From Acidobacteriaceae bacterium KBS 83 (GTDB taxonomy: Bacteria > Acidobacteriota > Terriglobia > Terriglobales > Acidobacteriaceae), in NCBI GenBank assembly GCA_000381585.1, contig KB906733.1, positions 186,001-250,000 of the forward strand: a stretch of DNA of 64,000 nucleotides, given 5' to 3'. The translations under genes were made by a program, and so were the position numbers. Under the pieces are notes generated by a model. That model searched no databases. It was not told the DNA's origin and saw nothing but the letters and a program-made list of their open reading frames with translations. Positions within the stretch are counted from its first letter, which is position 1. Each line of letters begins with the position of its first letter. Below, piece after piece: positions 8,641-49,397 of this stretch.

Positions 8641-8730
8641 AGTCTCGAAATGCGTTTTCATTTCTTTGGCTGACCCCAAAATGGGTGGCCCGGAGGTTTG
8701 ATTCCTCGAGTCACCCCGGGCCAATGGAAA
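8641..8730 (-). repeat. shared 3' flank of the secreted-protein family, degenerate copy
   Basis: GAAATGCGTTTTCAT followed by AAAATGGGTGGCCCGGAGG and CCCCGGGCCAATGG is closely matched at 12729-12810, downstream of an intact family gene. The stem of the hairpin is partly broken here (CTCGAGTCACC in place of CTCCGGGTC). Confidence 0.65.
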
Positions 8731-8840
8731 TTAGTTCTCTCCGGCGTGGAGAGCCGCAACAGTCTCACCGTGGGGAAGTCGGCCCTCCGCCGCTTGCCCT
8801 CGGCGGTTGCCATGGAAGCATGCCCCAGCGAGCGACGACC
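8731..8840 (-). pseudogene. remnant 3' end of a third 140-residue secreted-protein gene
   Basis: Read on the minus strand, the stretch ending at the TAA of 8731-8733 encodes LPHGETVAALHAGEN, matching the C-terminal LPHSETVAALRTEAH of the intact gene at 9573-9995 with its stop in the same place. The 3' flank is shared too. Upstream of this segment the similarity decays and no start, signal peptide or core domain remains. This is a truncated copy next to two functional relatives. Confidence 0.7.
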
Positions 8841-8855
8841 AAGCAATATGTCTTC

Positions 8856-9431
8856 CTATTGGGGCTCCTCATGGCGGTCCGCTTCTATGGCTACTCCGAA
8901 GACCATTCCGGTAACGTTGCCCGCAGCCGCAAAAAAGACGGGGTTGTTTAAGGCGTCGGCCAAGACCGGGACGGTCGTCTCGGTCAACGTAAGCTTGCCG
9001 GACGCATCCTTAAAACGTCCGGTTCCACCATTGGTTTGAACAGTCAGAGTACAGTGGCCCTGCCCCGGTGGTTTCGAGAGATCTATGCAATCGGCTCCAT
9101 GCGTCAGATTGACCTTCAATAGACTGCCATCCTGGAAGCGAAATACGCCCGCGCCGGCCCCTCTTAAGAAATAAATGTTGGCTGGGCCAGAGCAAGTGCT
9201 TGGCGGCCGCTGCGGAGAAGTCGTCTCGGCGCTTATAAGGCGCAAGGTGAATGGTCCTAGTGCACCGTTCCCAGCGAAATTCTCTTCGACAGTCACTGTG
9301 CCGGGCTGCTGTAGATTGGTCGCGCTGGCCCCAGAGGTTCCCGAATACGCCATCTTTACGGGATAACCTTGTGCGTAAACGCTTGCGACACCTAGATTGA
9401 GCATCAGCGATATAGCTGCTATGTATTTCAT
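8856..9431 (-). CDS. secreted protein of unknown function
   Basis: A 191-residue protein with a clear signal peptide (MKYIAAISLMLNLGVASVYAQ). The mature part is beta-rich, with GTVTVEENFAGNGALGPFTLR near the N-terminus and GGTGRFKDASGKLTLTET near the C-terminus. The latter resembles a motif seen in secreted barrel proteins of the allene oxide cyclase/dirigent-like type, so a small beta-barrel is a reasonable guess; no activity can be assigned. Two cysteine-bearing segments (STCSGPAN and ADCID...GHCTL) could form disulphides. The ATG at 9431 is preferred over one at 9452 because GGAG lies 9 bases upstream and the signal peptide begins there. It lies beside the 140-residue secreted-protein family but is not obviously related. 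Confidence 0.72.
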   Translation of the reverse strand: MKYIAAISLMLNLGVASVYAQGYPVKMAYSGTSGASATNLQQPGTVTVEENFAGNGALGPFTLRLISAETTSPQRPPSTCSGPANIYFLRGAGAGVFRFQDGSLLKVNLTHGADCIDLSKPPGQGHCTLTVQTNGGTGRFKDASGKLTLTETTVPVLADALNNPVFFAAAGNVTGMVFGVAIEADRHEEPQ

Positions 9432-9529
9432 TTGTGCCTTCTCCTTTCGCATTGTGTAAGTACCCCCTGTGCGATGACCGACGGAACCAAAGGGCGATCA
9501 ACCGGTTGCAGGGGCATCAGAAAGGTGAG

Positions 9530-9554
9530 ACCCGGAGGTTTGATTTCTCCGGGT
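9530..9554 (-). terminator. hairpin repeat downstream of the secreted-protein gene, copy A
   Basis: Arms ACCCGGAG (9530-9537) and CTCCGGGT (9547-9554) with a 9-base loop, 18 bases after the stop of the gene at 9573. The same hairpin lies after the paralogue at 12815. There is no T-run, so it may act as an RNA-stabilising or factor-assisted terminator. Confidence 0.6.
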
Positions 9555-9572
9555 CTTCCCGGGCCGATGGAA

Positions 9573-9995: not shown

Positions 9996-10113
9996 GGTGG
10001 TTCTCCTTTTCGAGGGCATCTCTCGATTGCCTTCGCCTCGCATCAAACCCCTCGTTGCGCGCAGGGTCAAAGGAACTGTCCATGAATCCTACGTGAGCAG
10101 GTAAGTCATCTCG

Positions 10114-10188
10114 AATGAGATAGCTCGAATTAGGTCGTAAACTGCCGCGCCGGTTGATACACTCTCTGCGGGCCGCTCGCGTTGAGCG
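10114..10188 (+). repeat. conserved upstream block of the regulator array, copy 1
   Basis: Contains AATGAGATAGCTCG, GGTCGTAAACTG, CGCCGGTTGATACACTCT and CCGCTC-GCGTT-GAGCGG, the last reaching the start codon. It recurs at 13356-13428, 15815-15887 and 18296-18368 and is the likely promoter/operator region of the four regulators. Confidence 0.65.
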
Positions 10189-12543
10189 GTGAGATCGGGG
10201 CGAGACGTGCAAACGCCTCTCGGTTCTCTCTTTCGGTTCGGCCCGTTCCAGGTGAATTCCCTCTCTGGCGAACTCCTGAAAAACGGGAACCGGGTGAAGC
10301 TGCAGGAGCAGCCATTCCGGCTTCTAGTCATTCTTTTGGAAAACGCCGGTGAGGTGGTCGCCCACGACGATCTATGCCATCGCATCTGGCACGACCATAC
10401 ATTTGTCGACTTCGAGGGCAGCCTCCGTGTCGCCGTTCGCAAACTGAGGGAGGCGCTTGGCGATGATGCCGAGAACCCGCGCTACGTCGAGACCATTCCC
10501 AAGCGCGGATATCGCTTCCTCGTTTCTGAAGTGCACCGGGTAGATGCCGCTCATGAAGCCGCTGAAACGCGCAAAGACCCTGACTCCTTGAAAACGAAGG
10601 CAATTCCGGTCGCCTTTGTCGACGTTGATCACAACCTGAATGCCGCCGTTAAGATTCGCGAGGTTCTCGGCAACTCGGCCGAGAGTCCGCGCTTTGTCGA
10701 GACGCTGCCGGGGCAGGGGCATCGATTCATGGGTAAATCGGAGGCCCAGGTTCAGCCTGTAGTTCCCGTAGTCACGGTCGAGCCAGATCGCGGCTTTCAC
10801 CGTCGTCGAATGTGGTTGAAGATCGGCGCAGGCGTTCTCGCAATCTCGGTCATTGCGCTTGCAGTCTTAGTTGCCGATCGATGGCATCGGCAGCAGAGTC
10901 CGCAGGAGCAGGAGGCCTTGACTGCCGTTCCATTTACAGCATTGCCCGGACGGGCGACCTCGCCGGCTTTCTCTCCCGATGGCTCCAGGATCGCTTTCGA
11001 ATGGACCGGTGATCAGGCACATGGGACCGAAGCCTTCGATCTATACGTGAAAGCTCTCGGAAGCGAAACTCTTCTCCGCCTTACGCAGCATCCTTCGGAA
11101 TGGATCAGTTCGGCATGGTCACCCGACGGCACGCAGATCGCCTTTCATCGAATAGACGGCGCCGGCACGGGAATTTACGTTGTCCCCGCACTTGGCGGCC
11201 CTGAAAAAAAAATACACTCCACCCGAATTGCCGACAACGATTTCGCTCATATTAGTTGGTCGCCCGACGGCAAGTGGATCGCCTTCGCCGATCGATTGCC
11301 GCCGGGGGAACACGAAAGGATCTATCTCCTCTCAATGGAAACACTGGAGACCAGGCAGATTCCGATCAGTCCAACGTACGTTACTGAAGGTCTGCCAGCG
11401 TTCTCCCACAACGGCGAGTACCTCGCATACTGGTGTTTTCGAAACAACTACGAGGGCACGCTATATTCTTTACGGCTTCCGGATGGAAAGCCGAAGATGA
11501 TTGCATCATTCTGGGGTCCCAACGGGTTGACATGGTCGGCTGACGACAAGAAACTCATTTATTCGCTTTTCAAAGGGAGGGGCTGGCACGAACTCGGTGA
11601 AGTCACTGTCGCCGATGGTTTGGCGAAGCGGCTTGCACTCGAAGGCAGCGCACTGCGGCCGACTGTTTCTCCCAAAGGTGACAAGCTTGCCTACAGCTCT
11701 CTTTCCGTTAGCTCAACCATCTGGCGTAGAGACCTGCTTCACCCGGAAACTCCGGCCATTGAACTCATGCCTTCCTCGCGGATACAGTTCGAGGCTCAAT
11801 ACTCTCCGGATGGAAGGCGCGTTGCCTTTGCGTCTCTGCGCTCTGGCGTGATGGGTGTCTGGATCAGCAATGAGGATGGCAGCAATCTGATACAGATCTC
11901 AAACCCCAATCACATGAGCGGCAGCCCGCAATGGTCGCCGGACGGAAACAAGATAGTGTTTGACTCGCGCCCCCTGGACCGCTTTGAAATAGATGTGGCC
12001 GACGTGGCTGAACGGAAGCCCAGAAAACTGGTCACAAATATCACCGGCGCATTTCGACCTCACTGGTCCCGCGATGGAAAGTGGATCTACTTTTCTTCCA
12101 ACGAACCGGGCAGAGCGGGTGTCTATCGTTGTCCCGCCTCCGGGGGAGATGCCGTTTTGCTCTCTAAAGCGATCGATGGGGCCAGTCCGCAGGAGTCTTT
12201 TGATGGGAAGACAATATATTTTGCGAGCCACGACGGGGCACTGCCGGTGAAGAAAGTGCCTGTGCCGGGGCAGCCCGGCACGGAATCAGTAGTGGGTGGT
12301 TTGCCCCGCTTGAGTGACCCCGACCTTTGGACCGTCTCTCCAGGTGGTATCTATTTTGTTCCTGCCGAGGCGCGCAGATCCGTCCGATACTTTGATTTCG
12401 CCAGTAAGCAAATACGGCCAATCTTTGAAGTGGACAAGGGTTTCGGTGGCGGCCTTTCGGTCTCTCCAGATGGCCGCTGGATCCTCTATTCACAGGATCG
12501 CTCTGTAACCGGCGACATCATGCTGGTCGATCATTTTCACTAG
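10189..12543 (+). CDS. transmembrane winged-helix regulator with TolB-like beta-propeller, copy 1
   Basis: 784 residues, ToxR/CadC-like in layout. An OmpR-type winged helix (about 14-112, including PFRLLVILLENAGEVV and ENPRYVETIPKRGYRFL) is cytoplasmic; one membrane helix follows (about 208-229); the rest is a PD40/TolB-type propeller with repeated SPDGSRIAF and SPDGKWIAF blades, predicted periplasmic. Copy 1 alone carries an extra segment at 141-181 (LREVL-like KIREVLGNSAESPRFVETLP) that duplicates the C-terminal half of its winged helix. It starts at GTG 10189, the position of ATG or GTG in all four copies; a conserved GTG 18 bases in is an alternative. It probably senses an envelope ligand and controls transcription without a kinase. 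It is divergent from the secreted-protein gene at 9573. Confidence 0.88.
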   Translation: MRSGRDVQTPLGSLFRFGPFQVNSLSGELLKNGNRVKLQEQPFRLLVILLENAGEVVAHDDLCHRIWHDHTFVDFEGSLRVAVRKLREALGDDAENPRYVETIPKRGYRFLVSEVHRVDAAHEAAETRKDPDSLKTKAIPVAFVDVDHNLNAAVKIREVLGNSAESPRFVETLPGQGHRFMGKSEAQVQPVVPVVTVEPDRGFHRRRMWLKIGAGVLAISVIALAVLVADRWHRQQSPQEQEALTAVPFTALPGRATSPAFSPDGSRIAFEWTGDQAHGTEAFDLYVKALGSETLLRLTQHPSEWISSAWSPDGTQIAFHRIDGAGTGIYVVPALGGPEKKIHSTRIADNDFAHISWSPDGKWIAFADRLPPGEHERIYLLSMETLETRQIPISPTYVTEGLPAFSHNGEYLAYWCFRNNYEGTLYSLRLPDGKPKMIASFWGPNGLTWSADDKKLIYSLFKGRGWHELGEVTVADGLAKRLALEGSALRPTVSPKGDKLAYSSLSVSSTIWRRDLLHPETPAIELMPSSRIQFEAQYSPDGRRVAFASLRSGVMGVWISNEDGSNLIQISNPNHMSGSPQWSPDGNKIVFDSRPLDRFEIDVADVAERKPRKLVTNITGAFRPHWSRDGKWIYFSSNEPGRAGVYRCPASGGDAVLLSKAIDGASPQESFDGKTIYFASHDGALPVKKVPVPGQPGTESVVGGLPRLSDPDLWTVSPGGIYFVPAEARRSVRYFDFASKQIRPIFEVDKGFGGGLSVSPDGRWILYSQDRSVTGDIMLVDHFH

Positions 12544-12600
12544 CATCGCTGGTAAGGGTCCGATTCCCACCGATTCTCACAGGCTAGACGGTGAGGCAAC
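12544..12600 (+). repeat. downstream flank repeat of the regulator array, copy 1
   Basis: AGCATCG...TCCGATTCCC followed by CGATTCTCAC and CTAGAC recurs after each regulator (15640-15690, 18111-18160, 20574-20630). This marks the ends of the duplicated units. Confidence 0.6.
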
Positions 12601-12606
12601 ATTGAG

Positions 12607-12732
12607 CAGCAGCCGCGACCGGCTGAAGAGAAGCGGCGGACTGTGGAGGCGATGCTGTTGCCTAGATCTTCGATCGCGCGGGTGGCACGCGAGCACGGAG
12701 TGAACGCGAAACCGGTCTTGGCAGCACGGAAA
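12607..12732 (+). mobile_element. IS66-family TnpA (OrfA) remnant
   Basis: An uninterrupted frame reads PAEEKRRTVEAMLLPRSSIA, then RVAREHGVNAKPVLAARK. This is the helix-turn-helix core of IS66 OrfA proteins, whose usual form is like VARxHGVNANQVFxWR. No start codon, terminal repeats or transposase body remain. The fragment lies in a junction between two duplicated regulator units, so an element may have taken part in the rearrangement. Confidence 0.65.
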
Positions 12733-12770
12733 TGCGTTTTCATATCTCTGGCTGAACCGGAAAATGGGTG

Positions 12771-12795
12771 ACCCGGAGGTTTGATGTCTCCGGGT
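12771..12795 (-). terminator. hairpin repeat downstream of the secreted-protein gene, copy B
   Basis: Arms ACCCGGAG (12771-12778) and CTCCGGGT (12788-12795), the same as at 9530-9554, 19 bases after the stop of the gene at 12815. Confidence 0.6.
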
Positions 12796-12814
12796 CTTCC
12801 CCGGGCCGATGACA

Positions 12815-13237
12815 TTACTTCGCTCCGGTACTGAGAGCCACGACAGTTTCGCTGTGGGGAAGCTGCGCTTCCTGGATGCGAGCCCGTTTCTCTGGCTTGG
12901 ACGCGGGAAGCGCAACATTCATGGACACGGCGCCGCAAAGCACTTCATGCAGGAAGTACTGGTTGCCGTACTTCGTGAAGACGACCACATTGTCGCTGGT
13001 CGACTGGTCGGCCGGGTGGATTGCGGTCAATGCATGGAAGCGATCGTCCTGGCTTCGAATCAGGATCGCGGTCTTAGCGGCGTTGTAGCTGACCTGATAG
13101 GTCCCCGCGGGAAGCATTTGGTTGTCAACGGTGAAGTCGAACGGAACCTGGAACGCAGGTGCCTGGGCATGTGCGCAAGCGCTGCCCATCGAGATCAAGG
13201 CCGCCGTCAGGAATGCAAGTACCGTAGTGCGTTTCAT
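12815..13237 (-). CDS. small secreted protein, 140-residue acidobacterial family, copy B
   Basis: A paralogue of the gene at 9573 with exactly the same length. The signal peptide MKRTTVLAFLTAALISMGSA is nearly identical, as are the mature N-terminus (PFDFTVDNQMLPAGTYQVSY), the FTKYGNQYFLHEVLC core and the ARIQEAQLPHSETVVALS tail. Differences concentrate in the middle (AAKTAILIRSQDDRFHALTA). The ATG at 13237 is preceded by GGAG 7 bases upstream, in an upstream region almost identical to that of copy A. It is divergent from regulator copy 2, so gene pair and intergenic region were duplicated together. Function unknown. Confidence 0.82.
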   Translation of the reverse strand: MKRTTVLAFLTAALISMGSACAHAQAPAFQVPFDFTVDNQMLPAGTYQVSYNAAKTAILIRSQDDRFHALTAIHPADQSTSDNVVVFTKYGNQYFLHEVLCGAVSMNVALPASKPEKRARIQEAQLPHSETVVALSTGAK

Positions 13238-13355
13238 GGTGGTTCTCCTTTTCGAGGGCATCTCTCGATTGCCGTCGCCTCGCATCAAACCGCTCTTTGC
13301 AGCGGGGGTCAAAGAAACTTGCCGTAAAACCTCCGTGAGCAGGTAAGTCATCGCG

Positions 13356-13428
13356 AATGAGATAGGTCGATATAGGTCGTAAACTGTCGCGCCGGTTGAT
13401 ACACTCTGTGAACCGCTCGCGTTGAGCG
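13356..13428 (+). repeat. conserved upstream block of the regulator array, copy 2
   Basis: Same elements as 10114-10188, ending at an ATG start in place of GTG. Confidence 0.65.
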
Positions 13429-15639
13429 ATGAGATCGGGGCGATACGTGCACACGCCTGTCGGTTCTCTCTATCGGTTCGGCCCGTTCCAGGTGAATTCC
13501 GTCTCTGGCGAACTCTGGAAAAACGGGAATCGGGTGAAGCTGCAGGAGCAGCCATTCCGGCTTCTGGTCATTCTTCTGGAAAACGCCGGAGAGGTGGTCA
13601 CCCGCGACGACCTGCGCCATCGCATCTGGCGCGACGATACGTTTGTCGACTTCGACAGCAGCCTCCGTGTAGCCGTTGGCAAACTGAGGGAGGCGCTGGG
13701 CGATGATGCCGAGAATCCCCGCTACGTCGAGACCATTCCCAAGCGCGGATATCGCTTCCTCGCTCCGGAGACCTATTCGGAAGTCGCCCATGGCATCGGG
13801 GAACTCGGCGCGAATCCGTCATCCGCCGAGATCGCCGCGCCTGACGAAGGCCGCATCGGCGCACCCTTGGTGCACCGTTCGAACTGGTCCCGCCGCTGGA
13901 TGCTTACATCAGTCCTGTTGCTCATTGTCGTCGCCGGCATCGCTATAGCCATCCGCACCTTCCGGCAGCAGCGTCCGCAGGAGGAGGCGGTGTTGACTGC
14001 CGTTCCGTTTACGGCTCTGCCCGAACGGGCGATTTCTCCGGCGTTCTCCCCCGATGGGTCCCGAATCGCGTTCGCATGGAACGGTGATCCAAAGGGCGGG
14101 GCCAAGGGGTTCGACCTATACGTGAAGGCCCTTGGAAGCGAAACTCTTCTCCGCCTGACGCGGCATCCCTCGGAATGGATTAGCGCGGCATGGTCTCCCG
14201 ATGGCACGCAGATCGTGTTTCACCGCCTGGCCGGTACTGACACGGGCCTCTACGTTGTGCCCGCACTGGGCGGCCCGGAACGAAAGTTACGTTCTACCCG
14301 AATGCGCCGGGGGCCGGAGCCTCTTTCCAATCACTACTCGATTGTCAGTTGGTCGCCGGATGGCAAGTGGATCGCTTTCGCCGACGAATTGTCAGAAGGA
14401 CGCGATGTCATAAGGATGTATCTCCTCTCCACCGAAACATTGGAGACCAAACAGGCTCCAATCGGTCCGAAGTGCGATGAACAAGGTATGCCTGCGTTCT
14501 CCCACAATGGCGAGTATCTCGCATACTGGTGCATTCAACATGCGAATGACGAGGCCGGGCTGTATTCCTTACCCCTTCCTGACGGAGAGCCGAGGATGAT
14601 TGCGACATTTCGGGAGTTTCCGAGTGGGCTAACGTGGTCAGCTGATGGGAAGAGACTTATTTATTCCGTCTGGAATGCGCGCTCATACATACTCGGCGAA
14701 GTAAGTGTAGCGAATGGCTCGGCAAAGCGACTTGGTTTCGCAGAAAATGCATCGCAGCCCACAGTTTCGTCGAAGGGAGAAAAGCTGGCATTCAGGACTT
14801 CATACTTCAACCGAAAGATCTTGCGCAGGGACCTGCTTCAGCCGGAATCTCCGGCCGTAGAACTCATCCCTTCCTCGCGGGCACAGTGGGGCGCTCAATA
14901 CTCTCCGGACGGAAAGCGCATTGCCTTTGCGTCTCTACGATCTGGCTTGCAGGGAGTCTGGATCAGCAGTGACGATGGCAACAACCTGGTGCAGATATCG
15001 GACCCCCATTATCAGAGCGGCAGTCCGCAATGGTCACCGGACGGAAACAGGATAGCGTTTGACTCGCTTCCCCTAGATCGCTGGGAAATATACGTGGCAG
15101 ACGTGGCCGATCGGAAGCCCAGGAAACTGGTCACCAATGTCTCCGGCTTAATTCGACCTCACTGGTCCCGCGATGGGAAGTGGATCTATTTCAGATCCCA
15201 AGAAGCTGGCAGGACGGGAGTCTATCGCTGCCCTTCGTCCGGCGGAGATGCCGTTGCGCTATCCAAAGACCCCGATGGGATTGGTCCGCAGGAGTCCTTC
15301 GACGGGAAGACAGTATATTTTGCAAGCCACCAACAGGAATTGACGCTGAAGAAAGTGGCTTTGCAGGCGCAGCCCGGTGCGGAGTCCATTGTGGATGGAT
15401 TGCCGCGCCTGAAGAACTCCAGCCTTTGGACCCTCTCATCAGGCGGTATCTATTTTGTTCCCGCCGATGCACCCAGATCACTCCGATACTTTGATTTCGC
15501 CACCGGGCAGATCCGCCCAGTTTTTGAAATGGACAACGATTTCGGTGGGGCCTTGTCAGTTTCTCCCGATGGCCGTTGGATCCTGTATTCACTACTCGGC
15601 GAAAACAGCGACATCATGCTCGTCGATTACTTTCACTAG
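13429..15639 (+). CDS. transmembrane winged-helix regulator with TolB-like beta-propeller, copy 2
   Basis: 736 residues. The winged helix (14-112) is almost identical to those of copies 3 and 4. The linker is of a different type (APETYSEVAHGIGELG, then RSNWSRRWMLTSVLLLIVV), with the membrane helix at about 157-176. The propeller keeps the same blade order (SPDGSRIAFAWNGD, FDLYVKALGSETLLRL, GLYVVPALGG, SPDGKWIAF, then SPDGKRIAFASLRSG and SPDGNRIAFDS), but intervening loops differ from the other copies. ATG start at 13429. It is divergent from secreted-protein copy B. The likely role is transcription control by a periplasmic signal; target and ligand are unknown. Confidence 0.88.
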   Translation: MRSGRYVHTPVGSLYRFGPFQVNSVSGELWKNGNRVKLQEQPFRLLVILLENAGEVVTRDDLRHRIWRDDTFVDFDSSLRVAVGKLREALGDDAENPRYVETIPKRGYRFLAPETYSEVAHGIGELGANPSSAEIAAPDEGRIGAPLVHRSNWSRRWMLTSVLLLIVVAGIAIAIRTFRQQRPQEEAVLTAVPFTALPERAISPAFSPDGSRIAFAWNGDPKGGAKGFDLYVKALGSETLLRLTRHPSEWISAAWSPDGTQIVFHRLAGTDTGLYVVPALGGPERKLRSTRMRRGPEPLSNHYSIVSWSPDGKWIAFADELSEGRDVIRMYLLSTETLETKQAPIGPKCDEQGMPAFSHNGEYLAYWCIQHANDEAGLYSLPLPDGEPRMIATFREFPSGLTWSADGKRLIYSVWNARSYILGEVSVANGSAKRLGFAENASQPTVSSKGEKLAFRTSYFNRKILRRDLLQPESPAVELIPSSRAQWGAQYSPDGKRIAFASLRSGLQGVWISSDDGNNLVQISDPHYQSGSPQWSPDGNRIAFDSLPLDRWEIYVADVADRKPRKLVTNVSGLIRPHWSRDGKWIYFRSQEAGRTGVYRCPSSGGDAVALSKDPDGIGPQESFDGKTVYFASHQQELTLKKVALQAQPGAESIVDGLPRLKNSSLWTLSSGGIYFVPADAPRSLRYFDFATGQIRPVFEMDNDFGGALSVSPDGRWILYSLLGENSDIMLVDYFH

Positions 15640-15690
15640 CATCGCTCGTAAGCGTCCGATTCCCATCGTCTCTACGACAGGCAACATTGA
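15640..15690 (+). repeat. downstream flank repeat of the regulator array, copy 2
   Basis: Matches 12544-12600. The next 120 bases (15690-15814) match 18165-18295 and hold no gene. Confidence 0.6.
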
Positions 15691-15814
15691 GCAGAAGCTG
15701 TGAGACGATTCATGCAGGAGTGGTGAAGCGACAGCGGCTCTGGCCTTCGCAGGTGATGCGGTTCGAGCGCGAACTCTTGCCGATGATTTAGCCAACCGGT
15801 TCCCGGACCACACG

Positions 15815-15887
15815 AATGAGATAGCTCGATAGAGGTCGTAAACTGTCGCGCCGGTTGATACACTCTGTGAACCGCTCGCGTTGAGCG
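15815..15887 (+). repeat. conserved upstream block of the regulator array, copy 3
   Basis: As in 10114-10188, but the divergent secreted-protein gene is absent to its left. Confidence 0.65.
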
Positions 15888-18110
15888 ATGAGATCGGGGC
15901 GAGACGTGCACACGCCTGTCGGTTCTCTCTATCGGTTCGGCCCGTTCCAGGTGAATTCCGTCTCTGGCGAACTCTGGAAAAACGGGAACCGGGTAAAGCT
16001 GCAGGAGCAGCCATTCCGGCTTCTGGTCATTCTTCTGGAAAATGCTGGAGAGGTGGTCACCCGCGACGACCTGCGCCATCGCATCTGGCGCGACGATACG
16101 TTTGTCGACTTCGACAGCAGCCTTCGTGTAGCCGTTGGCAAACTGAGGGAGGCGCTGGGCGATGATGCCGAGAGTCCCCGCTACGTCGAGACCATTCCCA
16201 AGCGCGGATATCGCTTCCTTGTTTCTGAAGTGCGCCAGGTAGATACAACTGATGAAGCCACTGAAACGCGCAAAGATCCTGGCCCCTTGAAAGCGGACGC
16301 AACTCCGGTCGCCTCTGTCGACGTTGAGCCAGATCGCGACTTGCACCGTCCTCAAATGTGGCTGAAGTTCCTCGGAGGCGTTCTGGCTATCGCGGTCTTC
16401 GTTCTCGGAGGGCTGGCTGCTTATCGGTGGTATCGGCAGCAGCGTCCGCAGGAGCAGGCGGCTTTGACTGCCGTTCCGTTTACGGCGTTGCCCGGAGAAG
16501 AAGCGTCCCCTGCGTTCTCCCCCGATGGCTCCAGAATCGCTTTCGCATGGAACGGTGATCCTGCGCACGCGGCCAAAGGCTTCGACCTATATGTAAAGGC
16601 CCTCGGGAGCGAGACTCTTCTCCGCCTGACGCGGCATCCCTCGGAATGGATCAGTCCGGCGTGGTCTCCGGACGGCACGCAGATTGCATTGCAGCGCATG
16701 GATGGCGCTGACACGGGGATCTACGTTGTTCCCGCGCTCGGCGGGCCTGAGCGGAAATTGCTTTCCACCCGAATGCACGGGACTGGCTACTTTCTCACGC
16801 GGAATAACTTCGCTCTTGTCAGTTGGTCGCCGGACGGAAAGTGGATCGCCTACGCAGATGTGGTGCCAGAAGAAGAACATGCAAGGATTTATTTGCTCTC
16901 AACGGAAAGATTGGAGACCAGGCGGATTCCGCTTAGTCCAATGTGCGCTGGTGAAGGTCTGCCAGCGTTCTCCCACAACGGCGAGTACCTTGCATACTGG
17001 TGCTTTCGAGACGACTACAGGGCGCAGCTATATTCCTTATCCCTTCCGGACGGAAAGCCGAAGATGATTACGCCATTCCGGGCTGTTCCAAAGGGATTGA
17101 CCTGGTCTGCTGACGACAAGAAACTCATTTATTCCCTTTGGCATGGATTCTCAGGCGAGTTCGGCGAAGTTACCGTCGCGGACGGTTCTGTGAAGCGGCT
17201 AGCAGTCGAAGGAAGCGCAGTACTGCCGACAGTTTCTCCCAAAGGCGACAAACTTGCTTATAGCTCCCTTTCCGCTGGCTCAAACATCTGTCGTAAAGAC
17301 CTGCTTCACCCGGAGACTCCCGCTGTAGAACCTATTCCTTCCTCGCGGGCACAGTTCGATGCTCAATATTCTCCGGATGGAAAGCGCATTGCCTTCGCGT
17401 CTATACGATCGGGCCGACAGGGAGTCTGGATCAGCAGTGACGATGGCAGCAACCTGGTGCAGATCTCGAACCCCAATTATGCGAGCGGCAGTCCGCAATG
17501 GTCGCCGGACGGAAGCAGGATAGCTTTTGACTCGCTTCCCCATGACCGCTGGGAAATATATGTCGCGGACGTGGCCGAAGTGAAGCCCAGAAAACTGATC
17601 ACAAATATTTCTGGCGTATCTCGACCTCATTGGTCCCGCGATGGAAAGTGGATCTATTTCAGATCCGACGAAGCCGGCAGAACGGGAGTCTATCGTTGTC
17701 CTGCCACCGGCGGAGATGCCATTGCACTCTCCCATGGCATCGATGCGGTCAGCCCTCAGGAGTCTTTCGATGGGAAGACGCTTTATTTTGCAAGCCACCG
17801 ATCTAAATCAACACTTAAAAGATTGACCCTGTCGGGGCAGCCAGGTACGGAATCAGAACTGGATGGATTGCCTCGCGTGAGAGACTCAAAGGTCTGGGCG
17901 CTCTTTCGAGGCGGTATCTATTTCGTTCCTGCCGAGGCGCCCAGATCTCTCCGCTATTTTGATTTCGCAACCCGACAGATCCGCCCTATCTTTGATATCG
18001 ACAAGGATTTCGTTAGCGGACTTTCGCTCTCTCCCGATGGCCGCTGGATCCTCTATTCGCAAGCTGGCGAAGCGAAAGGCGACATTATGCTCGTCGAGCA
18101 CTTTCATTAG
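15888..18110 (+). CDS. transmembrane winged-helix regulator with TolB-like beta-propeller, copy 3
   Basis: 740 residues. Winged helix 14-112, membrane helix about 158-178, then the propeller. The linker (SEVRQVDTTDEATETRKDPG) is of the copy 1 type, without the partial winged-helix duplication found there. Blades include SPDGSRIAFAWNGDPAHAAK, SPDGKRIAFASIRSG and SPDGSRIAFDS. ATG start at 15888. No secreted-protein gene lies beside it; about 250 non-coding bases, shared with copy 4, separate it from copy 2. The arrangement suggests duplication of the regulator alone. Confidence 0.88.
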   Translation: MRSGRDVHTPVGSLYRFGPFQVNSVSGELWKNGNRVKLQEQPFRLLVILLENAGEVVTRDDLRHRIWRDDTFVDFDSSLRVAVGKLREALGDDAESPRYVETIPKRGYRFLVSEVRQVDTTDEATETRKDPGPLKADATPVASVDVEPDRDLHRPQMWLKFLGGVLAIAVFVLGGLAAYRWYRQQRPQEQAALTAVPFTALPGEEASPAFSPDGSRIAFAWNGDPAHAAKGFDLYVKALGSETLLRLTRHPSEWISPAWSPDGTQIALQRMDGADTGIYVVPALGGPERKLLSTRMHGTGYFLTRNNFALVSWSPDGKWIAYADVVPEEEHARIYLLSTERLETRRIPLSPMCAGEGLPAFSHNGEYLAYWCFRDDYRAQLYSLSLPDGKPKMITPFRAVPKGLTWSADDKKLIYSLWHGFSGEFGEVTVADGSVKRLAVEGSAVLPTVSPKGDKLAYSSLSAGSNICRKDLLHPETPAVEPIPSSRAQFDAQYSPDGKRIAFASIRSGRQGVWISSDDGSNLVQISNPNYASGSPQWSPDGSRIAFDSLPHDRWEIYVADVAEVKPRKLITNISGVSRPHWSRDGKWIYFRSDEAGRTGVYRCPATGGDAIALSHGIDAVSPQESFDGKTLYFASHRSKSTLKRLTLSGQPGTESELDGLPRVRDSKVWALFRGGIYFVPAEAPRSLRYFDFATRQIRPIFDIDKDFVSGLSLSPDGRWILYSQAGEAKGDIMLVEHFH

Positions 18111-18160
18111 CATCGTTCGTAAGGCCCGATTCCCATCGTCTAGACGGCAAAGGCAACATT
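18111..18160 (+). repeat. downstream flank repeat of the regulator array, copy 3
   Basis: Matches 12544-12600 and 15640-15690, followed by a 130-base block shared with 15690-15814. Confidence 0.6.
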
Positions 18161-18295
18161 GAGCGGAAGCTGTGGTTGTTAGCGAGCGATCCGCGCAGGG
18201 GTGGTGAAGCGACAGCGGCTCTGGCTTCTTAGGTGATGCGGAACCAACGAGCACCCCTTGCCGATGATTTAGCCAACCGGTTCCCAGACCACACG

Positions 18296-18368
18296 AATGA
18301 GATAGCTCGATATAGGTCGTAAACTGCCGCACCGGTTGATACACTCTGTGGACCGCTCGCGTTGAGCG
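18296..18368 (+). repeat. conserved upstream block of the regulator array, copy 4
   Basis: As in 10114-10188, ending at a GTG start. Confidence 0.65.
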
Positions 18369-20573
18369 GTGAGATCGGGGCGAGACGTGCACACGCCTCT
18401 CGGTTCTCTCTATCGGTTCGGCCCGTTCCAGGTGAATTCCGTCTCTGGCGAACTCTGGAAAAACGGGAATCGGGTGAAGCTGCAGGAGCAGCCATTCCGA
18501 CTTCTGGTCATTCTTCTGGAAAATGCCGGAGAGGTGGTCACCCGGGACGACCTGCGCCATCGCATCTGGCGCGACGATACGTTTGTCGACTTCGACAGCA
18601 GCCTCCGCGTAGCCGTTGGCAAACTGAGGGAGGCGCTGGGCGATGATGCCGAGAATCCCCGCTACGTCCAGACCATCCCCAAGCGCGGATATCGCTTCCT
18701 CGCTCCGGAGACCTATCCGGAACTCGCCACCCATGGCATCGGGGAACTTGGCGCGAGCCCGTCATTCGCCCAGACCGCCGCGCCCCCCGTGGACCGTTCG
18801 AACTGGTCCCGCCGCTGGATGCTTACATCCGTCCTGTTGCTCATCGTCGTCGCCGGCATCGCGATAGCGTTCCGCACCTTTCGGCACCAGAGTCCGCAGG
18901 AGGAGGTGGCTTTGACTGTAGTACCGTTCACGGCGTTTGCGGGAGTCGCGACTTCACCGGCCCTCTCCCCCGATGGCTCAAGAATCGCTTTCGCATGGAA
19001 TGGCGACCCTGCACATGGGGACAAAGGCTTCGATCTGTATGTGAAGGCCCTCGGCAGCGAAACTCTTCTCCGCCTTACGCAGCATCCCTCGGAATCGATC
19101 AGTCCGGCATGGTCCCCCGACGGCGCGCAGATCGCATTTCAACGCCTGGCCGGCGCTGACAGCGGAATCTACGTTGTCCCCGCGCTGGGCGGCCCTGAAA
19201 GAAAATTACGCCCCACTCGAATGCCCACGACTAACTTCAATTTCATCAGCCGGATTAACTTCACGCTTATTAGTTGGTCGCCCGACGGCAAGTGGATTGC
19301 CTTCGCAGATGTGGCGCCAGGAGAGGAACATGCCAGGATCTATCTCCTCTCAATGGAAACATTGGAGGCCAGGCAGATCCCGATCAGTCCAAAGCGCGCT
19401 GGCGAAGGTCTGCCATCGTTCTCACACAACGGCAAGTACCTCGCATACTGGTGTTTTGTAAGCGACAATGGCGACGCCGTTCTGTATTCCTTACCAATTC
19501 GGGGTGGTCAACCTAAGGCTATTTCACCAATTCTGGCATATCCAAATGGATTAACGTGGTCGGCTGACGACAAGAAACTCATTTATTCCCGCTATACCAC
19601 TGGCAATGGGAACCTCACATCTGAACTCGGTGAAGTTACTATCGAGAATGGGTCGACGAAACGACTTGCCTTCGCAGGAAGTGCAATGCTGCCCACAGTT
19701 TCGTCCAGGACGGGCGAGCTTGCCTACAGCTCTCTTTCCACCAGCTTCAACATCTGGCGCAGAGACCTGCTTCACCCGGAATCTCCAGCGGTGGAACTCA
19801 TGCCTTCGTCGCGGGCACAGTTTGACGCTCAATATTCTCCTGACGGAAGGCGCATTGCCTTTGCGTCTCTACGATCTGGCTTGCAAGGAGTCTGGATCAG
19901 TAGCGACGATGGCAGCAACCTGGTACAAATCTCAGACCCCCGTTATGAAAGTGGCAGTCCGCAATGGTCGCCGGACGGGAACAGGTTAGCGTTTGACTCG
20001 AGTCATGGAGACCGCTGGGAAATATATGTGGCCGACGTGGGCGAACAGAAGCCCAGGAAACTGGTCACAAATGTCTCGGACGCAATTCGACCTCACTGGT
20101 CCCGCGATGGACAGTGGATTTATTTCCGATCCGATGAACCAGGCAGGCTGGGAATCTATCGTTGTCCCGCAGCCGGCGGAGACGCCATTGCACTCTCCCG
20201 AGATCCCGGGGTCAACCCGCAGGAGTCTTTCGATGGGAAGACAGTGTATTTTGCAAACACCTTCTCCAAACCAATGCTGAGGAAATTGTCTCTGCTGGCA
20301 TTGCCCGGTACGGCGTCAGAAGTCGGTGGATTGCCTCGCGTGAGCCACGCCGGCCTTTGGGCGCTCTCCACAGGCGGTATCTATTTTGTTCCGGCCGAGG
20401 GGCCCAGATCGCTCCGCTACTTTGATTTCGCAACCAGGCAGACACGCCCAATCTTTGAAGTGGACAAGTTTTTCGGTAGCGGCCTCTCGGTCTCTCCCGA
20501 TGGCCGCTGGGTCCTGTATTCACTAGTCGGCGATGTGAGCAGCGACATCATGATGGTCGACCACTTTCACTAG
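18369..20573 (+). CDS. transmembrane winged-helix regulator with TolB-like beta-propeller, copy 4
   Basis: 734 residues. The winged helix (14-112) is nearly identical to those of copies 2 and 3. The linker (APETYPELATHGIGELGASP) and membrane segment (RSNWSRRWMLTSVLLLIVV, about 151-168) are of the copy 2 type. The propeller has the family blades (SPDGSRIAFAWNGD, SPDGKWIAFAD, SPDGRRIAFASLRSG, SPDGNRLAFDS) with its own loops. It starts at GTG 18369. This is the last copy of the array; its downstream flank is the family repeat, and the SH3 gene follows. Role as for the other copies. Confidence 0.88.
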   Translation: MRSGRDVHTPLGSLYRFGPFQVNSVSGELWKNGNRVKLQEQPFRLLVILLENAGEVVTRDDLRHRIWRDDTFVDFDSSLRVAVGKLREALGDDAENPRYVQTIPKRGYRFLAPETYPELATHGIGELGASPSFAQTAAPPVDRSNWSRRWMLTSVLLLIVVAGIAIAFRTFRHQSPQEEVALTVVPFTAFAGVATSPALSPDGSRIAFAWNGDPAHGDKGFDLYVKALGSETLLRLTQHPSESISPAWSPDGAQIAFQRLAGADSGIYVVPALGGPERKLRPTRMPTTNFNFISRINFTLISWSPDGKWIAFADVAPGEEHARIYLLSMETLEARQIPISPKRAGEGLPSFSHNGKYLAYWCFVSDNGDAVLYSLPIRGGQPKAISPILAYPNGLTWSADDKKLIYSRYTTGNGNLTSELGEVTIENGSTKRLAFAGSAMLPTVSSRTGELAYSSLSTSFNIWRRDLLHPESPAVELMPSSRAQFDAQYSPDGRRIAFASLRSGLQGVWISSDDGSNLVQISDPRYESGSPQWSPDGNRLAFDSSHGDRWEIYVADVGEQKPRKLVTNVSDAIRPHWSRDGQWIYFRSDEPGRLGIYRCPAAGGDAIALSRDPGVNPQESFDGKTVYFANTFSKPMLRKLSLLALPGTASEVGGLPRVSHAGLWALSTGGIYFVPAEGPRSLRYFDFATRQTRPIFEVDKFFGSGLSVSPDGRWVLYSLVGDVSSDIMMVDHFH

Positions 20574-21188: not shown

Positions 21189-23621
21189 TCATTCTTCGCG
21201 CAGCAGGATCATTGGATCGACAGCGAGGGCGCGCCGCGCGGGGAGCCACGCTGCAACGAGACCCACACAGAGCATAGTAAGAACGACGCCGCCGAGGATG
21301 ACCGGGTCCTTCGGCGTGGCTTGATAAACGATGAACGCGAGGACGCGGGCAGCCAGAACGCCGAGAATCATTCCTGCTGCGGAACCGATGGCGAGCAGCC
21401 GGAAGGCGCGCCCAAGTGCTGCGCCGAGCACCTTGCGTTGATTGGCGCCGAGAGCGATGCGAATGCCGAACTCGCGGAGGCGTTTGCTTACCGTGTAGGA
21501 GGCCATGCCGAAGATGCCGGTGATGGCGAGCATCGCGCCGAGCGCGCCGAGGACACCTAGAGAAACGGTGGCGACACGGGAGGCGAAGAGGGCGGAATCC
21601 AGTTCGTTATTCCATGTTCTGATTTCGAGTGGCAGTGCGGGATCCAGGCTGTGCATCGATCGCTGCAGTGCGGAAGCGATCTCCTTGGGATCGCGCTGCG
21701 ATCGAACGACAATCCAGGTATCTGAGGAGTGGTTCTGGAGGAATGAAAAGAACATAGCCGGCTTGGGATCTTCCGTCAGGGTTTCGTACTTGCCGTCCTC
21801 TACCAGGCCCACAACTTCGGCCCGTTTGCCGCCCCAGAACTTGAAATGCTTGCCGATTGCCTGGTCGACGGACCCGAAAACCTTGCGAGCAAATTCGCGA
21901 TTCACTACGGCGACCAGCGGAGCCTTATCGTCATCGTGCATGGTGAAGGTACGGCCGGACAGAAATGCGGTCCCGGCCGCACGGAAATAATCTGGCGAAA
22001 CCTCGAAGTTTTGCGCATCGGCAGCGGCATTCGTTGGCCGGAAATCAGTTGTGGCGTCTGTGAATACGTCCGAATCGCCGCCGCCGATGCTGAGCGGAAG
22101 CCGACTGGCAGATCCTGCGGCACTGACGCCCGGAATCGCTTGCGCTGCATCGAGCATCCGCTTCTGCATCGTCACGACCTGATCTCCGCTATATCCAGCC
22201 ATATGCAGATCGGTCTTTACGAGCATCACGCCCTTTGGCTGAACACCGTAGTTGCTCTGGAGCGAACGCGCCAAACCGCGCACCGCGACGAGCGAAGAAG
22301 TCACCAGGACAGCACAGATGGCGATCTGCAACCCTAGCAGCACATCCCGCAGGGTAAAGCGGCGTACGCGTCCTGCATCAGCGGTGCCGGAGCGAATGAC
22401 CTGCCACGGATCGGAGCGGAGCACCTGGCGGACCGGGATCAGACCGAAAAGCAAACCACTGAAGATGGCAAGCAGTAAGGCAAGGACGTATGTTGTGACA
22501 TCCGGATTGACGGGCACGTTGATGGGGATATTCGGAATTGGCCGCCACGTGCTTAGCATCCGGAGAATTCCCACGGCTGCTGCCATGCCGCAAATACCTC
22601 CAGCGACTGAAATGACGAGGGCTTCGGTGAGGAGCTGGCGGAGGATGAATGTGCGGCGAGATCCAAGAGCCATGCGGATCGCGATCTCGCGCGACCGGTC
22701 CGCTGCCCGCGCGCCAAATAGACTGCCGAGATTCGCGCAGGCAGCCAGGAGAATGAGACCCGCTAGGAGCATGAGGCCGGCCACAAATGCCCGCGTGGGC
22801 CGGCCGAGAGAATTTCCTGCAAGCCCCGGATGCGATAACTCGAACTTCAGACCGTCATCCGATTTGGGATAGGCCTTCGCCAGCGAAGCCGCAATGGCGT
22901 TCAAGTCTGAGGTGGCCGAGGCCGGTGTTACCCCGGGCCTGAGGTGGCCGATGACCCACTCACTGTGGTTGCCACGCTCCTCCAGCGTGTTCCAATCGGT
23001 AATTTGTGGCGAATCAACGAGGGGAGCCCAGAGATCAGGCGCGAAGAACAGCTCAGTCCCGCGGAAATTCGGCGGCGCAACGCCGACGATCGTGAAGGAG
23101 TGCTTATTAATATTCACGCTGCGGCCCACCGTCGCGGGATCGCCGTGGAAGCGGCTGTGCCACAGGGCGTAGCTCAGAATGATCTCCGGCACGCTGTTCT
23201 TGCCATGCTCTTCGGAAGCATGAATGAATCGGCCAAGATACGGTTGAATTCCCAGCGCATCAAAATAGTTGCCGCTGACCATGTAGGGCCAGACCACGCT
23301 GGGATTTCCGGTGCCGGTGTCCAGCCCAACGCCGCCCATAATGTCGTACGCTACCAGCGCGTCGAAGCTGCGGTTCATATCGCGCAGGTCGCGGTAATCC
23401 AGATATGACTGCGAAGGAGTCGTCTCTGTCCCGTAGTTGCGCTCCACCATGAACAGGTTCTCAGGGTGCGGCACATTGAGCGGGCGCAGAACCAGCGCAT
23501 TCAGCACACTGAAGACAATGGCGTTGGCACCGATGGCGAGCGCAAGCGTGAGCACAGCGGTCAGGGCGAATCCTGGCGCTTTTCGCAATTGTCGCAAAGC
23601 AAGTCGTAAATCGGCGATCAT
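21189..23621 (-). CDS. ADOP-type ABC transporter permease (MacB/FtsX duplicated)
   Basis: 810 residues with the architecture membrane helix, MacB-type periplasmic domain, three helices, repeated. The N-terminus has the family opening LRLALRQLRKAPGFALTAVLTLALAIGANAIVF (about 4-36). The first FtsX block is near 280-400, with SREIAIRMALGSRR; the second is near 690-800, with REFGIRIALGANQR and LPARRALAVDPM. ADOP proteins are known as orphan permeases lacking an adjacent ATPase, as here. The ATG at 23621 has GGGAGG 5 bases upstream. There is no prefix domain and no PadR neighbour. The substrate is unknown; MacB relatives export macrolides, lipoproteins or peptides. Confidence 0.9.
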   Translation of the reverse strand: MIADLRLALRQLRKAPGFALTAVLTLALAIGANAIVFSVLNALVLRPLNVPHPENLFMVERNYGTETTPSQSYLDYRDLRDMNRSFDALVAYDIMGGVGLDTGTGNPSVVWPYMVSGNYFDALGIQPYLGRFIHASEEHGKNSVPEIILSYALWHSRFHGDPATVGRSVNINKHSFTIVGVAPPNFRGTELFFAPDLWAPLVDSPQITDWNTLEERGNHSEWVIGHLRPGVTPASATSDLNAIAASLAKAYPKSDDGLKFELSHPGLAGNSLGRPTRAFVAGLMLLAGLILLAACANLGSLFGARAADRSREIAIRMALGSRRTFILRQLLTEALVISVAGGICGMAAAVGILRMLSTWRPIPNIPINVPVNPDVTTYVLALLLAIFSGLLFGLIPVRQVLRSDPWQVIRSGTADAGRVRRFTLRDVLLGLQIAICAVLVTSSLVAVRGLARSLQSNYGVQPKGVMLVKTDLHMAGYSGDQVVTMQKRMLDAAQAIPGVSAAGSASRLPLSIGGGDSDVFTDATTDFRPTNAAADAQNFEVSPDYFRAAGTAFLSGRTFTMHDDDKAPLVAVVNREFARKVFGSVDQAIGKHFKFWGGKRAEVVGLVEDGKYETLTEDPKPAMFFSFLQNHSSDTWIVVRSQRDPKEIASALQRSMHSLDPALPLEIRTWNNELDSALFASRVATVSLGVLGALGAMLAITGIFGMASYTVSKRLREFGIRIALGANQRKVLGAALGRAFRLLAIGSAAGMILGVLAARVLAFIVYQATPKDPVILGGVVLTMLCVGLVAAWLPARRALAVDPMILLREE

Positions 23622-46985: not shown

Positions 46986-49397
46986 TTACTCGCTGCGAAG
47001 GGTCTGTACGGGGTCGAGATGTGCAGCGCGGCGTGCGGGCAGTGCGATGGCGACGAGCGACGAGAGGACGAGCAGCGCAAGCGACGCAGCGAGGACGGGG
47101 AGCGATGCGGCACCGGCATGGTAGAACTGCGCGCGCAGCGCATAGCCGGTGAGGATGGAGCAAAAGAGTCCTGCAGCAACGCCGATGAGGACCCAGCGCG
47201 ATTCCTGACCGAGGAGTAGATGCACGATGGCCTCGCGCGATGAGCCGAGCGCGAGGCGAATGCCGATTTCCTTCTCGCGGAGTGAGACCTCGTAGGCGAG
47301 CAGACCGTAGGTGCCGAGGATGGCAAGGAAGAGCGCGAGGGCGCCGAAGGCGGCGGCTACCTGCATGAGGAAGCTGCGCTCGGCAACTTCATGCACCATA
47401 CGCGTTTCCATCGGTTGGAGGCGGAAGAGCGCAAGGTCCGGATGTTGGCGAGTGAGTGTGCGGCGGACGGTTTCGGCGAGCAGAGCAGGATCGCCATTTG
47501 TGCGCAGCACAATAGTCATTGCAGTCTTCGGATTGTCGGTTTCGGGCAAGTAAAGATTCGGACGTGGTGGAGTGGCGAGATCGAAGTTGTGGATGTCCCC
47601 TACGACTCCAATGACGGTTGCCCACGTTTGGATGTCGCCACTCCAGACACGTTTTCCGAGGGGATCCTGCCCCGGCCACTCTTGCGCGGCAAGCGCGCGG
47701 TTCACGATGGCGACGTGATTGGTGCCGTTGTCCTGGCCGTTGAAATCGCGTCCGCTATAGAGGGTCTGGCCTATGGCGGCAAAGTAGCCGGGGGTGATGT
47801 GGAAGCTGTCCGGGGCCTCAATGCTGGGTCGGTGACATTGATCGGGTCGGGCATCGCTGCAGAAGCGGAAACGATCGATCGAGCCACTGATGGGGGAATG
47901 ATTTGCCGCGGCAACGGCCTGAACCCCGGGCAGATGGCGAAGCGTTTCCACCGCTTGATTGAAGAATAGGGCAGTGCGTGGGCCGTCGTAGCCAGGTGTG
48001 ACGCTGCTGCCGTGGATATCGACGCCCGCGAGGAGCAGGTGATCGGGAGCGAAGCCAAGCGGCTGATGAAGCAGGATCCGGACGCTGGAGATCATCCATC
48101 CGGCCCAGGAGACGAGCACGAGAGCGAGCGCGATCTGCGCGGTGACGAGGACGCGTCCGGCACCCTGGAGGCTGGAACTGGAGGATGCGCCGCGGCCGCT
48201 CTGAGTGAGATCGATCAGCAGGGAGGGCCGCAGAGTGCGGAGTGCCGGAAGCAGAGTAAGAATGATCGTCACTACCGCAGAGACGAATACGGCGAATGCG
48301 AGCACGCGTGGATGCAAGGCGGCGTGGCCGATGCGGGGCATGTGGAGTACGGTCACTTGCTTGACGCCGAAGATGGCGGCCTCCGCAAGCGCGAGGCCGG
48401 AGACTGCACCGAGTGCGGCGAGGACGGCGCTTTCGATGAGGAGCTGTCGCAGCAATTGACGGAACGATGCGCCAAGAGTGGCGCGGGTGGCGAATTCGTG
48501 GCGGCGACGCGTGTTGCGCGCAAGCAGCAAGTTCGCGAGGTTTGCGCAGGCGATAAGCAGCAGCAGGCCGCATGCGGCGAGTGTAGTGAAGAGCGCGGCG
48601 CGGGTGCCGGTGCCGGCGACGAGATCGGCGAAGGGAAGCGCGACGAGGTGAAAGTATGCCGGATAATAGCCCGGATAATCGTGGCGAAGAGATTGCTGGA
48701 TGAGATCAAGTTCGACCGCGGCCTGGGCGAGAGTAATGCGGGGCAGTAGCCGGCCGATTGCGTCATAAGAGGAGAATCCGCGTTGGGCCGGGTCGCTGAA
48801 GGGGTCGCAGCCGATGGGAAGCAAGACCTCGGGATGGTTGAGCGCGTTGGGACCTTCCAGTTCTTGCCCGAGCGGAAGCACTCCGGTGATCTGGTAGGTG
48901 TGGCGATCAATCTCGAGAGTGCGATTGCCAAGTGAAGAGCCGCCACCAAGACGATTCCAGAATGCTCCGCTAACAATGGCCTCGGAGTAGCAGTCGTGCT
49001 CGTTGCCGGTCTGGGCGAAGTCGTGACCGAGAGCAAGGGAAATGCCGAGGGTGGAGAGGAAGTTCTGCGTGACCTCGATGACCTGGCCAGCTTCGCTGCC
49101 GCGACTACTTCGGACGGTGGGGACGGCGCCCTTATAGGCGGTGATGGACTGGAAGGAGTGGCTACGCGTCTTCCAGTCCTGCACGGTGGGAATAGAGACG
49201 CCACTCCACGGGCGGCTGCTTAGCGCGACGAGGCGGTCGGGATGCGGGAAGGGAAGCGGCTCGAGCAGCACGGCGTCGAGGATGCTGAAGATGGCGGTCG
49301 TGGCGCCGATGCCGAGGGCGAGGGTGAGGATGGCGGTGGCGGCGAAGCCGGGGCTGTTGCGGAGTTGGCGGATCGCGTAGCGAACTGAGCGGAGCAT
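46986..49397 (-). CDS. ADOP-type ABC transporter permease
   Basis: 803 residues. The core opens at residue 1-40 with MLRSVRYAIRQLRNSPGFAA, and the FtsX blocks carry RRHEFATRATLGASFRQLL and LREKEIGIRLALGSSREAIV, ending LPARRAAHLDPVQTLRSE. Between them lie the two periplasmic MacB-type domains. The ATG at 49397 is the family start; longer readings through 49958 would add a non-family leader. GGAG lies 10 bases upstream. It has no prefix domain and no PadR partner, and it is divergent from the permease at 49703. Substrate unknown. Confidence 0.9.
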   Translation of the reverse strand: MLRSVRYAIRQLRNSPGFAATAILTLALGIGATTAIFSILDAVLLEPLPFPHPDRLVALSSRPWSGVSIPTVQDWKTRSHSFQSITAYKGAVPTVRSSRGSEAGQVIEVTQNFLSTLGISLALGHDFAQTGNEHDCYSEAIVSGAFWNRLGGGSSLGNRTLEIDRHTYQITGVLPLGQELEGPNALNHPEVLLPIGCDPFSDPAQRGFSSYDAIGRLLPRITLAQAAVELDLIQQSLRHDYPGYYPAYFHLVALPFADLVAGTGTRAALFTTLAACGLLLLIACANLANLLLARNTRRRHEFATRATLGASFRQLLRQLLIESAVLAALGAVSGLALAEAAIFGVKQVTVLHMPRIGHAALHPRVLAFAVFVSAVVTIILTLLPALRTLRPSLLIDLTQSGRGASSSSSLQGAGRVLVTAQIALALVLVSWAGWMISSVRILLHQPLGFAPDHLLLAGVDIHGSSVTPGYDGPRTALFFNQAVETLRHLPGVQAVAAANHSPISGSIDRFRFCSDARPDQCHRPSIEAPDSFHITPGYFAAIGQTLYSGRDFNGQDNGTNHVAIVNRALAAQEWPGQDPLGKRVWSGDIQTWATVIGVVGDIHNFDLATPPRPNLYLPETDNPKTAMTIVLRTNGDPALLAETVRRTLTRQHPDLALFRLQPMETRMVHEVAERSFLMQVAAAFGALALFLAILGTYGLLAYEVSLREKEIGIRLALGSSREAIVHLLLGQESRWVLIGVAAGLFCSILTGYALRAQFYHAGAASLPVLAASLALLVLSSLVAIALPARRAAHLDPVQTLRSE

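Follow-up and report, generated by a model that had tools for sequence, protein, structure and literature searches.

Transmembrane transcription regulators of the ToxR/CadC type combine a DNA-binding domain, a transmembrane (TM) segment and extracytoplasmic sensing in one protein, and Acidobacteriae are among the groups richer in such regulators, according to the part of a genome survey consulted here (PMC10269533). The four regulators described below, A-D, are predicted to follow the same plan. They differ from the surveyed proteins in their sensor, a predicted double TolB-like propeller; the terms 'propeller', 'PD40', 'TolB', 'TPR' and 'tandem' are absent from the main text of that survey, and no cassette exchange, relic or concerted heads were found in the parts of it that we consulted. 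The propeller fold of TolB, from the Tol-Pal system, occurs twice in the structural model of B, and the TolB equivalog family TIGR02800 (NCBIfam) matches B, the regulator scanned. Unlike TolB, B falls below the cut-off of that family (164.3 bits, under 343.15), is predicted to be anchored in the membrane behind a DNA-binding head and to carry two propellers. Closer in their heads are the winged-helix (wHTH)-TM-TPR regulators, namely the one at locus L159 and three that are paired with genes of the exported SEC family: these belong to the same head class as the array, and L159 also agrees with it in head type and in its divergent gene, but they carry a TPR sensor where the array has propellers. 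Concerted evolution by gene conversion, as described for TLR1/TLR6 in the portion of that work available to us (PMC2077338), likewise keeps stretches of tandem paralogues alike, whereas the part homogenised in the array is the promoter and DNA-binding domain of bacterial membrane regulators. Among winged-helix regulator paralogues of another acidobacterium, the section consulted of a further study reports no positive selection (PMC3174227). A literature search confined largely to non-subscription sources yielded nothing that we recognised on acidobacterial wHTH-propeller arrays or head exchange.

Layout and architecture of the array

The window, that is, the whole stretch of 64,000 nucleotides analysed here (G000:C1:186001-250000), belongs to a 6.25-Mb genome with 38 Trans_reg_C matches genome-wide. 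Regulators A-D are four intact open reading frames in tandem on the plus strand (10189-20573). The genes and remnants of the locus are as follows:

8856-9452, minus strand: exported protein SEC2, 198 aa; its orthologue stands head-to-head with an array-type head in the metagenome-assembled genome (MAG) of L159
9573-9995, minus strand: small exported protein of the SEC family, divergent from gene A, without a Pfam family
10189-12543, plus strand: regulator A, 784 aa; new head (about residues 1-112), linker, relic of a former head, TM helix and two predicted propellers
12815-13237, minus strand: the other SEC gene, 74% to the one before A; divergent from gene B
13429-15639, plus strand: regulator B, 736 aa; linker/TM of the B/D type
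15725-15820, plus strand: TPR-sensor-like remnant of 32 codons, upstream of C
15888-18110, plus strand: regulator C, 740 aa; A-type linker, relic apparently deleted
18206-18301, plus strand: the same TPR-sensor-like remnant with an in-frame stop, upstream of D
18369-20573, plus strand: regulator D, 734 aa; linker/TM of the B/D type

An earlier note on this DNA had described four consecutive winged-helix/membrane-helix/propeller genes of 734-784 residues, and our Pfam searches agree with it: each N-terminus matches Trans_reg_C (PF00486; 67-72 bits against a cut-off of 26.2), the head being an OmpR/PhoB-type winged helix in all four, and PD40 propeller repeats follow in each. The same note's description of them as one-component, kinase-free regulators was also confirmed, as receiver and histidine-kinase domains are absent among the Pfam matches at E 0.001. 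An AlphaFold model, made for B alone (28 sequences, mean pLDDT 84.9), places the head up to about residue 117, a low-confidence linker at 118-154, a long helix at 153-180, hydrophobic in sequence and a candidate single TM helix, and a beta region from about residue 190. VIA-align superposed TolB on residues 189-451 of this model (Z 27.8, rmsd 2.1, 239 aligned) and again on residues 459-715 (Z 26.8, rmsd 2.8, 249 aligned). Because TolB fits twice, the sensor is predicted to consist of two TolB-like propellers and not, as the earlier note had it, of one per regulator. Foldseek aligned tandem-propeller chains, for example LRP6, with B over about 600 columns, but with an rmsd of 14-17.

A hairpin-like element is repeated at 8679-8721, 9521-9563 and 12762-12804; each of the two SEC genes has a copy behind it and the third copy is past the end of SEC2, and they are perhaps terminators. 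Four MacB/FtsX permease genes are also found in the window (21189-23621, 30981-33725, 40954-43695 and 46986-49958).

Heads, promoters and propellers compared

The heads of B, C and D are 96-97% identical over residues 1-112, and that of A is 86-88% identical to them, so the near-identity of DNA-binding domains claimed earlier applies to three of the four genes. The propellers are 69-73% identical pairwise. The contrast extends to silent sites: among B, C and D, pS was 0.06-0.13 in the head and 0.42-0.46 in the propeller, on a scale where about 0.7 is near saturation. Where all four genes encode the same amino acid, silent variation affects 17 of 92 codons in the head compared with 156 of 290 in the propeller (Fisher p 1.8e-9), and even the lowest propeller run of 92 such codons has 38 that are silently variable. 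Upstream of the start codons, about 76 bp are homologous in all four genes, with small indels in A, and in B, C and D the promoters match one another as closely as the heads do; C and D have about 170 bp in common (91%), including the TPR-like remnant. Linker and TM types alternate along the array, A resembling C and B resembling D. As the contrast is present at silent sites and in the promoter, it points to homogenisation of DNA, by gene conversion or module exchange, and not to protein selection alone; recent copying of DNA would suffice for the identity of heads at silent sites and over the 76 bp, without selection for a shared operator. By these alignments, the homogenised unit is the promoter plus the head (plus the linker), and the DNA of head and promoter is young while the propellers are old.

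The presumed recognition helix, placed like the wing by reference to PhoB-type heads, has one and the same sequence in B, C, D, L159 and the regulator G183b. In A it carries three changes (D-to-E, S-to-G and G-to-R), the kind of difference that the earlier note had said would argue against its model. Pairwise dN/dS of the propellers is 0.22-0.37, that is, purifying, and coil positions are somewhat more variable than strands (0.51 vs 0.40); neither measure, each an average and not a site model, gives a sign of ligand-driven diversification.

Gene A contains a junction and, behind it, a piece of a second head:

10606-10612, plus strand: fusion junction in A, with homology to the L159 head gene as far as 10612 and homology to the G108 and G183a regulators from 10606 onwards (blastn)
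10615-10737, plus strand: relic of the former head, C-terminal half (recognition helix and wing), residues 143-183 of A

To the left of the junction, the DNA of L159, which comes from a metagenome bin (MAG 'Acidobacteriaceae bacterium isolate palsa_350') and bears an array-type head (68-73%) on a TPR sensor, matches the window at 8824-9519 (79% over 703 bp) and 10199-10612, with a further match before B at 13307-13351. The SEC gene of the window sits between the first two matches and outside the L159 match. The gene head-to-head with the L159 head (L159:4061-4714) is 66% over 196 aa to SEC2 and has a weak AOC_like match, below the cut-off (E 0.00097). To the right, the DNA of the G108 regulator matches the window at 10606-12538. 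The relic is identical to the heads of G108 and G183a at 33 of 42 alignment positions, and its DNA is 81% over 146 bp to that of G108 (E 1e-33), other heads matching more weakly. It accounts for a second head HMM match in A (E 2.5e-11), a feature unique to A among 60 head-matching open reading frames at the threshold used; the relic in G183b is degenerate and was seen by DNA (70% over 140 bp). Gene A is a chimera of an L159-type head gene on the left and, on the right, a propeller regulator with half a winged helix, the relic lying in frame. Judging by the linkers, the relic was apparently deleted from C. The TPR sensors of L145, L159 and L166 are matched in part by the remnants preceding C and D, a hint and no more that a TPR-type gene may once have stood here.

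A single clade of A-D propellers was rejected (AU p 0.014 for protein, 0.0015 for DNA), and the array is hence no fresh expansion of one receptor, contrary to the expanding set proposed previously. The array propellers are as close to that of G108, from another genus (pS 0.31-0.39), as to one another (0.40-0.46). A and G183b pair in the propeller DNA tree (95/97) and more weakly in the protein tree (83/79), and yet a head clade of the two was rejected (p 1.9e-79); with a relic common to both, this indicates that heads evolve in concert.

Heads and propellers also part company elsewhere in the genome. Paralogue E, on another contig (C4:768144-770264), is 66-68% to the array in its propeller and 44-47% in its head, which is of the C2b/C8b type, and its head and propeller trees conflict, with alternatives rejected by the AU test (p 0.0019 for heads, 0.00014 for propellers). 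Identity in head and propeller was 0.79 and 0.34 for C8b/C2b, 0.74 and 0.34 for E/C2b, and 0.60 and 0.31 for C2c/C8c, and in all three pairs, which we read as additional exchanges of head together with promoter, the upstream similarity exceeded that of all 200 shuffles. For E/C8b, with heads 70% alike, the upstream regions were not similar beyond shuffles. Of 19 named loci matching protein B, 18 bear acidobacterial names and one is a Gemmatimonadaceae bin, which makes it likely that G000 is acidobacterial too; a B-like protein (E 1e-80) is present in 33 of 200 family genomes, G000 included. At L180 (G149:C122), an array-type TM and propeller follow apparently protein-kinase-like sequence in different frames, a pseudogene or a draft error; the one piece of the kinase-like sequence scanned had no Pfam match.

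Divergent partners and candidate operators

The SEC family has 48 matches in 22 of 61 genomes. For the protein, Pfam gave no match and NCBIfam none over a cut-off, and its model (pLDDT 68) retrieved no PDB match at E 0.001. Eleven of the 48 matches stand head-to-head with heads of this kind, with 174-369 bp between the edges of the HMM matches, and 37 have no head-to-head regulator; in the surroundings searched (about 4 kb on each side, some ended by contig edges) there was no further head within 1 kb, and two lay farther off in other arrangements. Five of the head-to-head pairs are in G000, out of its eight SEC matches, and six are elsewhere; among these six, the pairs in G026 and G007 had previously been found beside regulators and were in the seed alignment, and those in G012 (two), G016 and G005 were not. 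Three SEC-paired regulators bear TPR in place of propellers. In six other genomes (loci L029, L032, L052, L053, L054 and L055), an outer-membrane barrel (OMP_b-brl_4/CarboxypepD_reg) adjoins wHTH-propeller regulators, upstream and divergent in five of the six cases, one of these about 1 kb off.

More generally, a divergent signal-peptide-like start was found within 600 bp of 25 of 32 regulators, against 9 of 32 in a downstream control, by a crude rule that overlooked the SEC partners of L028 and L031 and scored L163, which looks like a membrane permease; for L029, the regulator end was entered as 7930 in place of 7991, which shifted the gap. Partner homology was associated with head identity given the propeller (partial r 0.27, reached in 0 of 3000 permutations; 27 regulators, 351 pairs) and hardly with propeller identity given the head (partial r 0.05, reached in 533 of 3000). 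Excluding pairs within the outer-membrane-barrel group, the unpermuted values were 0.29 for the head and -0.05 for the propeller. These values apply to a sample gathered by similarity to the array, omitting C, D and L177, to which no partner was assigned, further propeller proteins such as C3long and G000:C5:5664, arrB and C8s as near-duplicates, and TPR-type regulators, L159 among them; the partners were mechanical open reading frames, partly assigned by hand, with SEC and not SEC2 taken as the partner of A. There are exceptions: C8b and C2b have head and promoter in common, but not the partner, and G183a has a partner of the C2c/C8c family, yet its head is in another class. Since it is the head, and not the propeller, that partner homology follows, we read the partner as the head's target, and the target seems to move from sensor to sensor in a single module with operator, promoter and head. 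Beside C8b, the divergent gene region at L048:7916-8040 (G000:C8) has the leader region and signal peptide of the array's SEC gene (87% DNA over 126 bp) joined to other sequence.

The intergenic regions hold two kinds of candidate sites:

10065-10105, plus strand: candidate operator before A, a conserved intergenic block of 41 bp (alignment of A, B, L159 and G183b)
13307-13347, plus strand: candidate operator before B, a conserved intergenic block of 41 bp (alignment); overlaps the L159 DNA match
10123-10147, 13365-13389, 15824-15848 and 18305-18329, plus strand: direct repeat GSTCG-N5-GGTCG-N5-TGYCG, 10-bp-spaced, weak candidate site

In the 41-bp block, 28 of 41 columns are invariant among A, B, L159 and G183b, compared with 65 of 220 over the full alignment, the block being the best window, with its length set post hoc after viewing the alignment. 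It is conserved although its divergent genes fall into three families. Its core occurs exactly in the genome before A and B only, C and D carrying the TPR-like remnant there, and a genome scan for a wider regulon gave one match with two mismatches and ten with three, no excess over the control (13 vs 16). The direct repeat is exact in the four array promoters only, genome-wide; as an operator it is no more than a weak candidate, as matches with up to two mismatches numbered 92 against 131 for a reversed-pattern control, and it was not found in the promoters of L159 or L179. One of six one-mismatch copies (G000:C6:372878-372902) lies about 150 bp before another wHTH gene.

Origin of the array

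We consider it probable that A-D arose by fusion of a control module, comprising head, promoter and divergent target, onto a propeller regulator, the heads being homogenised afterwards. A plain recent tandem duplication, in which propellers evolve fast and heads are under strong constraint, would explain the tandem layout, the 3' tails in common and the upstream junction that C and D have in common; it is very improbable all the same, given a contrast that is present at silent sites, propellers under purifying selection and the rejected propeller clade. A more serious competitor is sensor replacement, in which the head stays and diverged 3' propeller parts are imported by recombination, so that one head collects sensors. 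It yields the same present pattern and agrees with propellers that form no clade and are as close to that of G108 as mutually. What makes it less likely than not in our view is that the join in A lies inside the old head, with a left side that matches a foreign control region and its divergent SEC2, which places the joining of head side and sensor side there, and that homogeneity among B, C and D is as high in the promoters as in the heads.

The model of the earlier note, in which selection favours a set of receptors that couple different ligands to common promoters, survives in part: one head type does sit on diverged, distinct propellers, and the recognition helix of B, C and D is identical. 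It is nonetheless rather unlikely as a whole, since the helix of A differs, the 41-bp block is missing before C and D, and the propellers show no average sign of diversifying selection. It is also improbable that the exported partner is a ligand or binding partner of the propeller and not a regulated target. Exported-looking genes do adjoin most of the regulators examined, as such a role would predict; their homology follows the head, and SEC genes pair with TPR-sensor regulators too.

If the array did arise by module fusion and homogenisation, the N-terminal winged helix would bind DNA in the cytoplasm, one helix would cross the membrane in the predicted topology, and the pair of TolB-like propellers would sense something periplasmic, presumably a ligand. 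The head most likely acts from the short intergenic region on the divergent gene for an exported protein and on its own promoter, binding and direction of control being presumed, and the head with its promoter, joined by the divergent target in the case of A and B, would form one transferable control module apart from the sensor. An L159-type module (exported protein, operator, promoter, head and linker) may have been fused in the middle of the old head onto a propeller regulator, leaving the relic in A. The stretch of head and promoter would then have been homogenised across the array by gene conversion or repeated grafting, so that diverged propellers received one head. As C and D have neither divergent partner nor conserved block, A and B are the genes that the module picture describes best.

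More tentatively, and with somewhat less than even confidence, we propose that Acidobacteriota transplant whole control modules (exported target, operator, promoter and head) between double-propeller and TPR sensors, the array holding a head kept constant by conversion, variable sensors and, in the half-head relic, a fossil of one transplant. If so, the array would represent a constant-region/variable-region architecture among bacterial one-component receptors. Sequence seldom shows how a one-component regulator acquires inputs and still keeps its targets, and here the junction, the relic and silent-site dating expose the steps. The linkage of head and partner also gives a practical rule, namely to seek the target of an orphan regulator through relatives of its head and not of its sensor, and brings many wHTH-propeller regulators, a large group as yet uncharacterised, within reach of testing.

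Outside G000, no two of the listed B-like matches lay on one contig, with five candidates scored per genome, a depth at which tandem copies could be missed; the four-copy propeller array has thus so far been seen in G000 only. Tandem head-bearing pairs occur at G028:C9:231745-233773 and G030:C86:140892-143505, with heads about 1.7 and 2.0 kb apart, respectively, and G000 itself has tandem heads 2.3 kb apart at C10:21633 and 23966.
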